From a virus: 20,256 bases of DNA. The notes under the pieces were generated by a model. That model was given only the letters and a program-made list of their open reading frames with translations, was not told the DNA's origin and ran no database searches. The stretch covers positions 1 through 20,256 of the IMG/VR virus record IMGVR_UViG_3300037042_002677; one strand, given 5' to 3'. Positions within the stretch are counted from its first letter, which is position 1. Each line of letters opens with the position of its first letter. The translations under genes were made by a program, and so were the position numbers. Shown in pieces: positions 1,943 through 20,256 of the stretch.

Positions 1943-2632
1943 TTAGTCTAAACTAAAGGCACTTGAAGATTTTGGAATATCAAAATCATCATCTCCTCCA
2001 AAGTTTTTAACTTCAATAGTTTTATTCTTTGGTACATATATATGTGTAGCTTGATCAAATTTTAAACACTTACCTTCTTCTAAACTAGCCATAGCATATT
2101 TACCATTACTTGCTTTTGGAAGTTGTAAGTTATAATTTGTATAACCTTCTGCATTAATCCATTCTTGTCCACCTACACAGAATTCAAGATATACATCTTT
2201 GAATGGTGCTGATGCATTAAATGCATTAATTAAAGAATCTGCATCTGCATGTTTTTTGTTTTGTTCTTTAGCCCATTCAGTAATTCCTAAAGTCTTACAT
2301 AGGTTAATGACAAACATAAACATTGATCTTTGTTGTGTAACAGGTTCTCCACTTGGCATTGTTCCATCTTTGTATCCGAAGGGATTTGCATTAATTTTAC
2401 CAATTTTACCTAAGTGACGACCTTTAGATTGGTCATTATCAATATAGAAACCCTCAAAATCTTCAATTGGTTCTGTTTCTACATTTAAATAGATATACTT
2501 TTTCTCAGGATATCTCTCATCTTCTTTAGTACTAATACTAGTAATTTTTAATACATGATTTCCTGGAGCAATCTTTTTGCCACCTTTACCACCACTTTTG
2601 CTTTCTAATAAATCTGTTAAATCTACACTCAT
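1943..2632 (-). CDS. putative phage ssDNA-binding protein (acidic tail)
   Basis: 229 residues. The body (about 20-195) alternates short strands and loops as in an OB-like fold (NHVLKITSIS, YIYLNVETE). The extreme C-terminus is strongly acidic (FGGDDDFDIP) and ends SSSAFSLD. Such a tail is the usual protein-docking device of single-stranded-DNA-binding proteins, and its DDDFDIP core resembles the bacterial SSB tail, although it is not at the very end. The gene lies immediately downstream of a Sak4-type recombinase ATPase, a family often encoded beside an SSB. The function is inferred from tail and context; no conserved catalytic motif was recognised. Confidence 0.6.
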   Translation of the reverse strand: MSVDLTDLLESKSGGKGGKKIAPGNHVLKITSISTKEDERYPEKKYIYLNVETEPIEDFEGFYIDNDQSKGRHLGKIGKINANPFGYKDGTMPSGEPVTQQRSMFMFVINLCKTLGITEWAKEQNKKHADADSLINAFNASAPFKDVYLEFCVGGQEWINAEGYTNYNLQLPKASNGKYAMASLEEGKCLKFDQATHIYVPKNKTIEVKNFGGDDDFDIPKSSSAFSLD

Positions 2633-5708: not shown

Positions 5709-6422
5709 CTACCAGATTAAATGTTCATTATAATTTTGTTTAATAATTACTTGTGTTTCTAAGAATACATTCTTGGAATCCCATCTAGTTTCTGCATTGT
5801 ATGCAGCACTTGCGGGATGAGATAATAAAAACTTATAGTTATTATCATTAACACAATCTGCCCAATCTTGAGCTTGTTTTCCCATGTAAATATACACAAG
5901 ACCATTATTACTCCATGTTAAATGGTCAAACACATATGCTATAAAGGGTTTCCAGATATTATAATGTTGACCTATTTTACCTACTGTAGTTGTGAAAGCT
6001 GTATTAAGAAGTAATACTCCTTGTTTGGCCCATCTGCTTAAATCTACATCAGTTGATACAGGGTGTCCACCATATACAGTTAAGTTAATTTCATTTAAGA
6101 TATATCTCAAACTTGGTTGTAACTCATTTGTTTTACTGCAACTAAATGCAATACCATCTGCAACATCAAATTGTGGATATGGATCCTGACCTACTATTAC
6201 TACTTTAAGTTTGTCATATGGACATTCTTCAAATGCTCTAAATACATCTTTAAGAGGAGGTGTGAATCTTTTACCATCTTTTGTTAATCTAATTAACTGA
6301 AGAATGATTTTTTCAAAATCTGAGCTCTCTATAAATGATTTTAATACGGGTTTCCACCCTGAGGGTTCTAATTTAAGTAACACTTTAGTTCTTATTTCTT
6401 CTAAATCTATTTTTTTATTCAT
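5709..6422 (-). CDS. ung: uracil-DNA glycosylase, family 1 (UNG)
   Basis: 237 residues, full length for UNG. Motif 1 is GQDPYP at 78-83, with the catalytic water-activating Asp80 and the Tyr that excludes thymine; the following histidine of cellular UNG is a proline here. LLLNT at 137-141 carries the uracil-binding Asn140. Motif 2 is HPASA at 202-206, with the catalytic histidine. All key residues are therefore kept. The enzyme removes uracil from DNA, starting base-excision repair, and may limit uracil incorporated during rapid phage replication. It is the first gene of the leftward replication block, with a TAnnTTTG promoter box (6442-6449) 20 bases upstream of its start. Confidence 0.93.
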   Translation of the reverse strand: MNKKIDLEEIRTKVLLKLEPSGWKPVLKSFIESSDFEKIILQLIRLTKDGKRFTPPLKDVFRAFEECPYDKLKVVIVGQDPYPQFDVADGIAFSCSKTNELQPSLRYILNEINLTVYGGHPVSTDVDLSRWAKQGVLLLNTAFTTTVGKIGQHYNIWKPFIAYVFDHLTWSNNGLVYIYMGKQAQDWADCVNDNNYKFLLSHPASAAYNAETRWDSKNVFLETQVIIKQNYNEHLIW

Positions 6423-6430
6423 TTTTATGC

Positions 6431-6438
6431 TAAATTTG
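6431..6438 (+). promoter_or_regulatory. Bacteroidota-type -7 box (TAAATTTG), rightward
   Basis: TAAATTTG matches the Bacteroides housekeeping-sigma -7 consensus TAnnTTTG exactly and lies 16 bases before the ATG at 6455. A T-run (6411-6416) occupies the -33 position, about 20 bases upstream, rather than a clear TTTG. The implied leader is only about 10 bases. Confidence 0.5.
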
Positions 6439-6441
6439 TTA

Positions 6442-6449
6442 CAAAATTA
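6442..6449 (-). promoter_or_regulatory. Bacteroidota-type -7 box (TAATTTTG), leftward
   Basis: Read on the minus strand, 6449-6442 is TAATTTTG, again an exact TAnnTTTG match, 19 bases before the uracil-DNA glycosylase ATG at 6422. It faces the rightward box three bases away, so the two polymerases would compete for the same DNA. The -33 region on this strand is T-rich without a clear TTTG. Confidence 0.5.
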
Positions 6450-6454
6450 ATATT

Positions 6455-6769
6455 ATGTCGGTAAAAATAAAAGAGATGAAAGATGATGCTGTCTTCAAAA
6501 TTGAAGTTAACAAAAGTTTCTATCTCATGGCTAAAGAGGTTATATATTATTTATTTACTTCTCAAGAAGACAAAGAGGCTCTTGAAGAGGCATTAAGAAA
6601 TATGACAACCAAAAAATATTCTGAATTAACATTGTATGAAAGATCTTTCTATACAGTTACCTTGTTGATTGCAGAAATTGAAGCAGTTGCAAAAAAAGAA
6701 TCTCTTTATGAAGAGAAAGAAATTTTGCAACCAGGTGATGAAGGTTATGTTGCACCTACCGAAGATTAA
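6455..6769 (+). CDS. conserved hypothetical protein (104 aa)
   Basis: Plus-strand gene, 104 residues, acidic and largely helical (AKEVIYYLFTSQEDKEALEE, LTLYERSFYTVTLLIAEIEA), with a flexible acidic tail (PGDEGYVAPTED). No motif with a known function. It diverges from the glycosylase gene across a 32-base gap and its last 14 bases overlap the convergent gene at 6756-7133. Codon use matches its neighbours and the frame is intact, so it is a real gene; the role is unknown. Confidence 0.75.
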   Translation: MSVKIKEMKDDAVFKIEVNKSFYLMAKEVIYYLFTSQEDKEALEEALRNMTTKKYSELTLYERSFYTVTLLIAEIEAVAKKESLYEEKEILQPGDEGYVAPTED

Positions 6770-7157: not shown

Positions 7158-8198
7158 ATGGGAAAAAGTTCAAAGAATACACATGCTATACTCAAAAATA
7201 CAGAAATTGTATTAGAATATTTAGAAAAATTTCCAGAAGCACCATCTAAAACCTTAGCCAGAAAAATTTATGCAGAAAATACTGCATTTTTTCAATCAAT
7301 GGAACATACTTACACTAGAGTAAGATATTACAGAGGTCAAACTGGTAAAAAATCAAGAGAAAGAATGGTTAATGGTCAAAACAATAAATTTGTAAAAGAA
7401 CTTAAAACTAAAGTTGTGCATACTATTCTTGCTTTACCAGAATCACATACAAAAACAAGAAATCAATTTACTTTTCCAACAGGATGTATGAGACTTGGAG
7501 TGTTTGGTGATGTTCACATACCTTTTCATGATAATACTGCCTTAGAAACTATGTTTACTAAGTTTGAAGAAGAAAATGTAGACTCTATATTAATTAATGG
7601 AGACTTATTAGACTTCTATCAGCTTTCTTTTCATGAAAAAGACCCAAGAGTAATACATTTTAAAGATGAAATAGAAGCAGGAAAAGAATTCTTAGCTTAT
7701 CTCAGAGATAGATTCCCTGGCATTCCAATCTATTACATCACAGGTAACCATGAAAATAGATTTGAAAGATACCTTAGAATTAAGGCATCAGAACTATTAG
7801 ACATGGATGAGTTCAGACTAGATGTTATTCTACATGTTGCAGAATACAGAATAGAGTTTATACCATTTAGAAGTAAAGTAGTATTTGGTGACTACACTAT
7901 AGAGCACGGTGATAAAATACCTGGTGCTGGTGGTGTAGTACCTGCTAGAACACTTCTAATGAGGCTTAAGTCTAATTCTATAGTGAATCACTTCCATAAG
8001 TCTAGTGAAAGCTCACAGAGAGTTTATGGAATAGGTGAGCCAACTACAATTAAAGCATATAGTTTAGGATGCATGTGTGATCTTGCTCCTGAATACATGG
8101 AAATCAATGAATGGAACCATGGTTTTGCTATACTAAAAAGAATTAAAGATAAAGTTTCAGTGACTAATTACAAAATAGAAGGTAATATTATACTATAA
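7158..8198 (+). CDS. calcineurin-like metallophosphoesterase with basic N-terminal domain
   Basis: 346 residues. Residues 112-325 are a metallophosphoesterase: GDVH at 117-120, GDLLD at 148-152, GNHE at 196-199, EHGD at 249-252, and NHFHKS at 277-282. All metal ligands of the binuclear site are in place. The first 75 residues are different: a helical segment (ILKNTEIVLEYLEKFPEAPS) and a basic YTRVRYYRGQTGKKSRERM at 52-70, looking like a small winged or helix-turn-helix DNA-binding unit. Likely a DNA phosphodiesterase or nuclease of the Mre11-like superfamily acting in replication or repair, though a nucleotide phosphatase is possible. It is followed by a TAATG-coupled gene. Confidence 0.85.
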   Translation: MGKSSKNTHAILKNTEIVLEYLEKFPEAPSKTLARKIYAENTAFFQSMEHTYTRVRYYRGQTGKKSRERMVNGQNNKFVKELKTKVVHTILALPESHTKTRNQFTFPTGCMRLGVFGDVHIPFHDNTALETMFTKFEEENVDSILINGDLLDFYQLSFHEKDPRVIHFKDEIEAGKEFLAYLRDRFPGIPIYYITGNHENRFERYLRIKASELLDMDEFRLDVILHVAEYRIEFIPFRSKVVFGDYTIEHGDKIPGAGGVVPARTLLMRLKSNSIVNHFHKSSESSQRVYGIGEPTTIKAYSLGCMCDLAPEYMEINEWNHGFAILKRIKDKVSVTNYKIEGNIIL

Positions 8199-16664: not shown

Positions 16665-16672
16665 CGCAACTG

Positions 16673-16746
16673 TGATTCCGCTTGGATTCAAACCAAGGAC
16701 CTATGCCTTAGAAGGGCAGTGCTCTATTCAGCTGAGCTACAGAACC
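16673..16746 (-). tRNA. tRNA-Arg (anticodon TCT)
   Basis: 74 nt on the minus strand. The acceptor stem GGTTCTG pairs with CGGAATC (two G-U pairs). The D-arm is GCTC...GAGC. The anticodon loop CTTCTAA carries TCT and reads AGA, a codon well suited to this A/T-rich genome. The T-arm is CTTGG-TTTGAAT-CCAAG and the discriminator is A. CCA is not encoded, and the outermost anticodon-stem pair (27-43) is a C-U mismatch. It lies 9 bases after the stop of the AT-hook-like gene, so it is cut out of an mRNA transcript. Confidence 0.93.
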
Positions 16747-17705: not shown

Positions 17706-17990
17706 TTAATCTATTTTAGGAAGTTCTTGAATCTGACGCATATAATCTGTAACATCTGCAGAGGTTAAATAACCTTCTACATCACTAGTAACCGGTGTAT
17801 CATAACATAATACACTGAACTTTTTCCCGGGAGGGAATTTTATAACTGCAATTTCATATTTACCAACCATACCACCTTTTGTATATGGTCCAGATACACA
17901 ACTAATACCATAGTTGTTATCAAACATAAGAGCTGCACCTACACCACCTCCATCTGTCTTTTCAAATGTTAAATCTTTAAATTCTTTCAT
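17706..17990 (-). CDS. conserved phage protein, paralogue of the gene at 19996
   Basis: I start at the internal ATG at 17990 (94 residues, MKEFKDLTFEKTDGGGVGAA), because the first 29 codons of the longer frame overlap a better frame and look non-native. The signature FDNNYGISCVSGPY, then YEIAVIKF, CYDTPVTSDVEGYLT and VTDYMRQIQELP is one I recall as common in Bacteroidota phages (type MxFDNGYGVSV...YELAV...CYDTPIT.DV.GYLT). Function unknown. A second, diverged copy lies at 19996-20256, on the other side of the structured RNA region. Confidence 0.8.
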   Translation of the reverse strand: MKEFKDLTFEKTDGGGVGAALMFDNNYGISCVSGPYTKGGMVGKYEIAVIKFPPGKKFSVLCYDTPVTSDVEGYLTSADVTDYMRQIQELPKID

Positions 17991-18093
17991 TGTGTTTAGT
18001 TTTTCTTGTGTATTTCTTCTTGTTCTTGTATATGACAGGCTTAGTTGCTTGCCATATTTCCTGCATTGTAACTTCAATCTTTTTCATAATCAT
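17977..18093 (-). CDS. small basic protein (38 aa)
   Basis: Start ATG at 18093, two bases after the upstream stop (18087 is an alternative). 38 residues, MIMKKIEVTMQEIWQATKPV then a lysine/arginine-rich tail (YKNKKKYTRKTKHNERI). Short proteins ending in KP...KNKKKYxRK are a type I recall from Bacteroidota phages. It overlaps the next gene by 14 bases. Possibly nucleic-acid binding; function unknown. The longer frame from 18174 is rejected because it would swallow the gene upstream. Confidence 0.6.
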   Translation of the reverse strand: MIMKKIEVTMQEIWQATKPVIYKNKKKYTRKTKHNERI

Positions 18094-18261: not shown

Positions 18262-18292
18262 AAAAATAAAGTGATACTATTGATAGTACCAC
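18262..18292 (-). terminator. intrinsic terminator embedded in the end of the 78-aa gene
   Basis: On the minus strand GTGGTACTA, loop TCAA, TAGTATCAC (18292-18271) forms a 9-bp stem with one G-U pair, followed by TTTATTTTTTTTTAT. The stem encodes the last codons (Trp-Tyr-Tyr-Gln) and stop of the 18277-18513 gene, so the coding sequence and the terminator coincide. Confidence 0.88.
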
Positions 18293-18513
18293 TCATTTAA
18301 CATATCACCCATTATTTCTTCAATAAGGGCATTGTCATGCATTTCTTGTGCTATTTCTCCATTGAACTTAAATCTATGTTCTATGGGTTTATTAGCTTGT
18401 ACTCTTATTTTGTTTCTTACAACCATTTTAAGAGTATTTCGGAGATGATTGATATCCATTGTATCAATATCTACTTTTTGACCATTCTTCATAGTCCAAT
18501 AAACTGTTTCCAT
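18277..18513 (-). CDS. conserved phage hypothetical protein (78 aa)
   Basis: 78 residues opening METVYWTMKNGQKVDIDTMD, then INHLRNTLKMVVRNKIRVQA and a helical C-terminus ending EEIMGDMLNEWYYQ. The YWT.K.G.K.D.D.MD..HLRN.LKM..RN pattern is one I recall from a familiar small protein of Bacteroidota phages, function unknown. It is the first gene read after the long structured RNA region, about 20 bases past the last conserved RNA element, and ends in an embedded terminator. Confidence 0.8.
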   Translation of the reverse strand: METVYWTMKNGQKVDIDTMDINHLRNTLKMVVRNKIRVQANKPIEHRFKFNGEIAQEMHDNALIEEIMGDMLNEWYYQ

Positions 18514-18531
18514 AAATATAGTTTAAATTAA

Positions 18532-18700
18532 TCCCTCTGCACTCAGTTGTAGTGTAAGTTTCAGTCAGGTTATAAAAAAGATTATCAGTCTTCTTTAATC
18601 AAAACCCTGCGTAACATCTTTCTAGTGATAAAATCTAGTAGGGGTGCGTACATACATTACAACTGCTCACCCTTGGGAAGTGAGTTGTGGTGCATTACAA
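18532..18700 (-). repeat. structured RNA module, copy 1
   Basis: Three helices: outer TGCAC/GTGCA (18538-18542 with 18690-18694), hairpin CTCAC/GTGAG (18666-18670 with 18680-18684) with nine-base loop CCTTGGGAA (plus-strand reading), and a long arm CAGTTGTAGTG/CATTACAACTG (18544-18554 with 18655-18665) that carries a 100-base structured insert. TCCC at 18532-18535 can pair with GGGA of the hairpin loop. Confidence 0.75.
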
Positions 18701-18794
18701 AACCTTCGTTGAGTATATTATCTGTGCACAAATAATATATCCATTTATTGTTTTGAGTGTAACTACCTAATGGTCCAGTTTTAGTACACTGTTC

Positions 18795-18863
18795 TCCCTC
18801 TGCACTCTACTTATTTTGCAAAATTAGTAGTCTCACCTTGGGAATGAGAAATGGTGCATTACT
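18795..18863 (-). repeat. structured RNA module, copy 2 (compact)
   Basis: The same three helices in 69 bases: TGCAC/GTGCA (18801-18805 with 18854-18858), CTCA/TGAG (18832-18835 with 18845-18848) around the identical loop CCTTGGGAA, and a simple arm at 18807-18830 (CTACT..TAGTAG, 10 pairs and one mismatch) without insert. The arm sequence differs from copies 1 and 3 but its pairing is kept. TCCC (18795-18798) again matches the loop GGGA. Confidence 0.75.
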
Positions 18864-19771
18864 ATTTGAAAGGCTGAGTATTTGACCTTTCATGTTGTTA
18901 TCATTAAGAGTTTCCTCTATATATACACACTTGTATTTCTACAAGTAAACAACATGCTCAATGATTTATAGTATCATCATACTTTTACTTACCAATGCAA
19001 TAAGTTTCTTTTCACACCAACTTCCTTGCGAGATACACAGGTTGCACCCTGTTAGCTAGATATTACTTAGTCCCTTTACATAAACCTTGCGAGTCTTCTG
19101 TACCTACATATTGCAGTAGGATAAGAGCATTTTCATTGATAAGTGTTTGAACGTTTTTTGCTTATATCTGTTAAGATTTAGTTAAGCGGTTCAGGAGAAT
19201 GAGGGAAGTAGTCCAAACTTTATGTAACATGCTACCTTTTGAGTAGTTTAGTTACAACTTCCTTCTGCTTTAAGCTGCCAAGCTTACTTACTGTTTGATG
19301 TAAATACACACTATTTCTAGTAGCATACAGAACATCTCACTAATAACAACTTCCATCTTGGCAAGATGTACTATTGTTACCTATTGCACTTTCTATTGAC
19401 ATTTCTGTCTCAACTTCCTACCTGTTAGAAAGTCTACATCTCTATGCATCAACCGTTAGGCCACTAGCACACCAAAATGTAGGTAGTTACAATACTCTTC
19501 AGTAGACAGGATTACTCCTGCGCAATATGTTACCAACACATCACTTTATACCATCACTGGTTTATCCTATGGTCACGAGAGCTGACCTATTGTTTCAGTA
19601 GTTCCACAAGGAAACTTAACGCACACACCATGAGTATCTAAACTCTGAGGGTAACAATATTGTGTACTTATATCAGGACTCTTACCTGCAAATCCCTACA
19701 TAGTCAATAGGAATGGCTTTCTCATACTAAACTGACTTGCAAATCAGAATAGAATGATAATCTTTAAGGTT

Positions 19772-19900
19772 TTCCCCTCTGTACTTAGTTGTTATTGGCT
19801 GTACTCAAGACCAATATTCATCACATCTTCTATTAATTTAGAAGGAGACGCTCTGTGTGATTACAACTACCTGACCTTGGGAATCAGGAATGGTACATTA
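19772..19900 (-). repeat. structured RNA module, copy 3
   Basis: The outer helix is TGTAC/GTACA (19780-19784 with 19893-19897), one pair changed from G-C to A-T on both sides. The hairpin CCTGA/TCAGG (19870-19874 with 19884-19888) keeps the loop CCTTGGGAA but has a swapped C-G pair. The arm TAGTTGT/ACAACTA (19786-19792 with 19863-19869) carries a 70-base insert. TTCCC at 19772-19776 complements the loop. Confidence 0.75.
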
Positions 19901-19995
19901 CAACTACAGTATAAAGTCATAAAATCCCCAGGTATAAATACCGTAGATTCCAAATGCCTAACTCCTGTAGGTGTGGCTCATTATGCTTTCATGAG

Positions 19996-20256
19996 TTATT
20001 CCACGTTACGTTTGATTTTTCTTGGTGGAAGTGCTTCTACTTCCTTCATCAGTCTAGTTACATCATCCGGAGTTAGATGTCCTTCAACATCATTAGTAAC
20101 CGGAGTATCATATACTAACTCTGAATACTCATCACCAGGAGCCATATATATAACAGCAAGTTCATATAGTCCTTGTCTACCTCCATGGCTATAAGGACCA
20201 CGTATTACTGATACACCATAATGGTTATCAAAGAAGTGAAAGGCATATTCTGCTGG
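19996..20256 (-). CDS. 3' part of a conserved phage protein (paralogue of 17706 gene; cut by window edge)
   Basis: The minus-strand frame is open from the window edge to a TAA at 19996; 86 residues are visible. FDNHYGVSVIRGPYSHGG, LYELAVIYMAPG, VYDTPVTNDVEGHL and VTRLMKEVEALP align along their whole length with the 17706-17990 product, so the two genes are paralogues, with related DNA too (TAGTAACCGG shared at the VTND/VTSD codons). The C-terminal PPRKIKRNVE is an extra basic tail. The start is beyond the window. Function unknown. Confidence 0.85.
   Translation of the reverse strand, partial: PAEYAFHFFDNHYGVSVIRGPYSHGGRQGLYELAVIYMAPGDEYSELVYDTPVTNDVEGHLTPDDVTRLMKEVEALPPRKIKRNVE

Follow-up and report, generated by a model that had tools for sequence, protein, structure and literature searches.

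GOLLD, already known from phages, is an RNA whose copies assemble into a 14-mer nanocage. The GOLLD of env-38 is 833 nt long and has a 5' and a 3' domain (PMC12286853). Among self-cleaving ribozymes, the twister has a dispensable P1 stem and reported catalytic residues in the A after the cut and the G of GAGGG, and twister-sister has no pseudoknot and is cut on the opposite strand (PMC5408937); a P5 arm is reported in 1% of twisters (PMC6154101). A precedent for ribozymes placed at the ends of functional RNAs comes from the HDV-like theta ribozymes of gut phages, which cut adjoining the 3' ends of tRNAs (PMC10879173).

We considered how these systems compare with a locus near one end of a 20,256-nt window, the whole of the stretch analysed here (IMG/VR record IMGVR_UViG_3300037042_002677, positions 1 to 20,256). 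The window is part of a crAss-like phage genome, an assignment made because the closest named relatives of its DnaB-type helicase are Crassvirales (~33% identity). Between 18514 and 19995 there is no credible ORF: the minus strand runs from 19995 to 18514 without a gene, and only two ORFs reach 40 aa, one of 43 aa and another, of 146 aa on the plus strand and antisense to the next gene, of which the beginning falls in this interval. The gene-free stretch of ~1.5 kb described in the initial annotation is therefore real, and the tRNA-Arg that it placed 1.8 kb downstream lies at 16672-16746 on the minus strand, at a distance of 1.77 kb. Its observation of raised G+C holds in direction and not in level: we measure 36.3%, not the ~42% it gave, where the remainder of the window has 30.2%. 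The hairpin density that it emphasized finds no counterpart in folding energy, which in 150-nt windows does not surpass that of the remaining sequence (mean z -1.03 on the minus strand of the locus vs -0.77 elsewhere), so that these tests give no energy-based signal of structure. The evidence for structure at this locus is instead comparative, consisting of an Rfam match and covariation. Paralogous genes belonging to phrog_4074 flank the locus on both sides (17706-18077 and 19996-20256, minus strand), and a metallophosphoesterase gene at 7158-8198 (plus) lies on the strand opposite to the remaining operon.

Several RNAs, each of them encoded on the minus strand, share the gap. They are given here in the direction of transcription together with the gene that follows them.

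19775 to 19900, minus strand: M1, the module upstream of GOLLD (R1 covariance model, 66.8 bits, E 5e-17; predicted cut 19900|19899; L4 UUCCCAAGG at 19883-19875; L1 GAGGG at 19779-19775)
18861 to 19899, minus strand: predicted released RNA of 1,039 nt, bounded by the M1 and M2 cut sites and holding the M1 fold, a ~104-nt leader and GOLLD
18871 to 19670, minus strand: GOLLD RNA at its full length of ~800 nt, delimited by conservation across 10 phage loci
about 19266 to 19670, minus strand: the less conserved GOLLD 5' domain, from the same comparison
18871 to 19265, minus strand: GOLLD 3' domain, the portion modelled by RF02032 (cmscan, 100.8 bits, E 6e-27)
18796 to 18861, minus strand: M2, with a minimal P5 arm (R1, 60.3 bits; predicted cut 18861|18860, 10 nt past the GOLLD 3' end)
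18533 to 18697, minus strand: M3, with a long P5 insert (R1, 24.9 bits; predicted cut 18697|18696)
18277 to 18513, minus strand: small gene of 78 aa without known family, with M3 as its predicted 5' leader

The low R1 score of M3 is due to its long P5 insert; both conserved ends are present, and its 3' end lies 19 nt ahead of the next start codon (ATG). A very weak R1 match at 2137-2226 (minus; 14.8 bits, E 0.11) is probably due to chance.

The GOLLD match covers the RF02032 model end to end (positions 1-416 of 416, in a permissive cmscan). Its 100.8 bits fall short of the gathering score of 150 bits, which is a limit chosen by curators and not a property of the structure, and for this reason a default Rfam scan at gathering thresholds misses GOLLD and reports only the tRNA. 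The match does pass the cut-off of E 1e-5 that Kretsch et al. used for GOLLD (PMC12286853). Related phage contigs are 88-99% identical over the ~800 nt from 19670 to 18871 (10 loci), and two other loci have matches of their own, L069 at 102.6 bits and L107, which is 89% identical, at 85.2 bits. The RNA thus resembles GOLLD in the whole of the 416-position 3'-domain model, in a total length of ~800 nt, in its occurrence in a phage and in its proximity to a tRNA gene. It differs in its divergence (101 bits, where the cut-off is 150), in residing in a crAss-like phage and in being flanked by twister-like candidate ribozymes predicted to set its ends. On these sequence comparisons we identify 18871-19670 as a divergent copy of GOLLD. 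The initial annotation was correct in proposing a large structured noncoding RNA in a crAss-like phage; it had also taken this RNA for a new class, subject to a search of Rfam, and that search returned a known family at E 6e-27. Its statement that no family could be named holds for the repeated module, which has no Rfam match, and fails for the large RNA.

The repeated covarying module that had been noted in the gap is confirmed in three copies, M1 to M3. One pattern built from these copies and run on IMG/VR finds it in at least 120 contigs (more than 120 by the pattern scan), mostly with one to three modules per genome, and 117 distinct copies form a crisp alignment; such a scan gives minimum counts and favours copies close to the consensus. 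The consensus reads UAAUGYACCA-(P4: e.g. CUCAC UUCCCAAGG GUGAG)-(P5: CAGUUGUAAU...AUUACAACUG)-A-GURCA-GAGGG. The pattern fixed UAAUGYACCA and UUCCCAAGG, whose constancy carries no evidential weight, and left P4, P5, the second P2 strand and GAGGG free; although free, all four are conserved or covarying. In the module alignment 22 of 29 pairs are altered on both sides, and covariation is 0.484, compared with 0.175±0.011 after shuffling and no more than 0.13 after sliding. P4 is 99% paired with four pair types, P2 changes from C-G to U-A and from A-U to G-C, and the fifth P2 pair changes from C-G to U-A in three modules. The final five nucleotides are GAGGG in 113 of 117 modules, which the search did not demand. 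In P5, G-U is favoured over A-C in a strand-specific manner (50 vs 20). The flanks pair as P1 in the twister register in 61.5% of cases, compared with 48.6±1.8% in re-dealt flanks (0 of 2000 permutations), with weak P1 stems in the window's own modules.

The module also contains a pseudoknot, T1, in which the CCC of L4 faces GGG in nearly all copies. Several GOLLD loci have UUCACAAGG in L4 paired with GAGUG, and these variants, which turned up in the GOLLD loci, gave rise to a compensatory test that had not been planned. In a dedicated scan, L4 with CAC and an intact P4 is accompanied by GUG in eight of eight modules, and CUC is found with GAG in one module (L264). The middle T1 pair in alignment A4 is C-G 17 times, A-U six times and U-A once, with seven double-change cells and a covariation that none of 500 shuffles reaches. 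These compensatory changes, from CCC/GGG to CAC/GUG and CUC/GAG, demonstrate the T1 pseudoknot within a conserved, covarying module structure. The L1 strand has been lost in a few relatives (L015, L114 and L265, the last being a CUC module). The variant modules of L015 and L114 end in GGTGCATTA, the full complement of TAATGCACC, and not in AGTGCAGAGGG, and that of L015 adjoins an ORF for an HNH-like homing endonuclease. When further variants of T1 or T2 were sought by pattern, most matches fell in coding sequence.

The order of elements in the module, P1 - U|AA - P2 - P4 with U-CCC-AA - P5 - P2' - GAGGG - P1', is that of a type-P1 twister (RF03160). The three Watson-Crick pairs between L4 and L1 that make up the twister T1 (CCC-GGG) are found in the module, as is the P4 hairpin with its U-CCC-AA loop; the U|A dinucleotide in L1 beside P1 is present as well, but UAA was required by the search pattern. 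The register was set against what we take to be the twister reference sequence, which agrees with the published pair numbers (PMC7026644). The module register of U|AA, P2, P4 with U-CCC-AA and GAGGG fits the reported pairs A2-G39, A22-A40 and U18-A23 (PMC7026644) and the review of twister (PMC5408937), and the residues reported there as catalytic are kept.

Several features depart from this fold. P2 has 5 bp in the module and 4 bp in twister; the conserved GC of L2 that forms T2 is replaced, so that a single, invariant C16-G33 pair is possible and the second pair is absent; and L4 is longer by one U and lacks its invariant G-C closing pair, with U in place of that G. We suggest that P2 and T2 would stack as 5+1 instead of 4+2 pairs, with an equal total. 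The P5 arm, rare in twister, is nearly always present here, and its inserts make modules up to 355 nt long. The Rfam twister models, RF03160 included, give no match, and a scan of all Rfam with the 55-nt minimal module brings up no twister model at E ≤ 10 either. In view of the differences in P2, T2 and the L4 closing pair and the failure of the Rfam models, we do not file the module as twister; the comparison was with the open-licence literature, and this variant may have been described earlier. Twister-sister and hatchet, likewise self-cleaving as the module is a candidate to be, were rejected as its family, since there is no match and neither consensus occurs in it. Like the theta ribozymes, the module has its cut site, here a predicted one, directly beside the 3' end of an RNA with a function, whereas theta ribozymes have an HDV fold beside tRNAs and the module has a twister-like fold beside GOLLD and mRNA-end hairpins (PMC10879173).

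The placement of the modules bears on their function. The predicted U|A cut falls 9-12 nt past the GOLLD 3' end in 10 of 10 GOLLD loci, with differing P5 inserts, and a second module lies upstream in five of the eight GOLLD loci that have long upstream sequence. Of 103 non-redundant flanks, 57 have a hairpin that ends no more than 13 nt upstream of the module, where control offsets give 25-34. Outside the GOLLD loci the predicted cut often comes after a hairpin and 30-50 nt ahead of a start codon (21 of 117 modules at 30-39 nt, where 3.3% are expected), and the orientation of the modules is that of both adjoining genes in 93 cases, compared with 13 in which one gene is opposite. These hairpin, start-codon and orientation data fit a cut that separates an upstream RNA capped by a hairpin from a downstream one that starts with the ribozyme fold. 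A module tied to GOLLD was considered and rejected: just 2 of 50 contigs with the module gave a GOLLD match, a lower bound given that the search overlooked L107. GOLLD occurs with different modules across its 10 loci, and most modules occur without detected GOLLD. The module is thus independent of the large RNA, a twister-like ribozyme candidate and not part of one giant RNA.

We therefore favour, with a probability of about two in three, the reading that the module is a divergent twister-like ribozyme that works like twister and sets the ends of RNAs, those of GOLLD included, at a crAss-like phage locus of processed noncoding RNA. From fold and placement we infer catalysis, the position of the cut and the part that the module plays in fixing where RNAs end. 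In this model one minus-strand transcript would carry GOLLD and three divergent twister-like ribozymes. Each would adopt a type-P1 twister fold, with the flanks forming P1, the cut between U and A of UAA, and then P2; the P4 loop U-CCC-AA and the 3' strand GAGGG would form T1, and an open-ended P5 would hold the variable insert. Cutting at M2, 10 nt past GOLLD, would make the GOLLD 3' end, cutting at M1 upstream would release the 1,039-nt GOLLD RNA, and cutting at M3 would leave a new structured 5' end on the next mRNA. If cleavage occurs, current covariance models have missed a twister-like branch present in at least 120 phage contigs. Self-cleaving ribozymes would then have a concrete job in these phages, the making of RNA 3' ends, which would tell how the GOLLD monomer acquires its own, and crAss-like phages would use them as the joints for shuffling their genes.

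Inserts in the P5 arm are unrelated to each other and interchangeable. Comparison of 115 distinct inserts gave 89 families among those long enough, 81 of them singletons, and unrelated inserts lie between near-identical flanks in L055/L107 (97.5% and 93%) and L091/L108 (100% and 97.5%), which demonstrates exchange of the P5 insert. Among module pairs that share a flank, both flanks are common in 6 of 95, as against 129 of 446 (29%) for ordinary gene ends and 80% for long intergenic gaps. GOLLD lies behind module joints at different upstream sites, the window resembling L003 and L080, and L055 and L107 resembling L047. Some modules are chimeric, with mismatched P4 halves (L091, L118) or P2 ends (L110), and are apparently recombinants joined within P5 or the conserved L4 loop. 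Homologous recombination between conserved ends would be enough to explain the joints, and a site-specific process may act there. In L051 an HNH_3 endonuclease gene with a helix-turn-helix tail (2344-2904) lies 161 nt from a module. That the inserts are natural sensor or guide domains, a swappable aptazyme library that times RNA ends including that of the GOLLD nanocage monomer, is a speculative and rather improbable extension.

The same observations can be read in other ways. A twister-like fold that has no catalytic activity, and serves as a cis-regulatory leader or small RNA presenting the variable P5 arm, would accord with the three altered core features and the lack of an Rfam twister match, with the hypervariable inserts and with the many modules in 5' leaders. 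We consider it unlikely, as the residues reported as catalytic in twister (PMC5408937) and the GAGGG end are kept and a fixed position behind hairpins and the GOLLD 3' end suits cutting. It is still harder to see the module as mainly a mobile or site-specific recombination element at the DNA level, with hairpins that act in single-stranded DNA. The scarcity of pairs sharing both flanks, the exchange of cassettes between near-identical flanks (95-100%) and the HNH-type genes near a few modules point in that direction, but genomes mostly have one to three copies, the preference for G-U over A-C is strand-specific, module orientation follows the genes, there is no common recombinase, and homologous recombination in a conserved RNA gene accounts for the joints. 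As for the original proposal that the whole 1.48 kb is a single new class of large ornate RNA, the lack of ORFs and an Rfam scan that at gathering thresholds returned the tRNA alone were in its favour; with a GOLLD match in its middle, modules that in most contigs lack detected GOLLD, and GOLLD found with different modules, it is refuted by the list of parts, and we give it very little credence.

The twister-like candidate appears in diverse surroundings. No match to the 42-nt consensus was found among named crAss phages in INPHARED, an R1 search of seven Crassvirales genomes gave nothing convincing (best E 0.05), and matches in bacterial genomes were essentially at chance level save for one contig, L216, that looks misbinned. 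The sequence 5' of the modules shows no enrichment of a Bacteroidetes-type promoter, and the neighbouring genes are diverse with no common partner. A partnership of the Ro60/Y-RNA kind was rejected, with a DUF2828/DUF7788 gene (phrog_850) in only 2 of 21 carriers; in L060 such a Ro60-like gene (DUF2828 and DUF7788, 838-2298) lies 138 nt downstream of a module, and another is present in G010. One module-bearing contig, L010, also encodes a hatchet ribozyme at 6387-6553 (79.3 bits, above the Rfam gathering score); it occupies a further non-coding stretch of ~600 nt, and two modules follow ~1 kb downstream of it.
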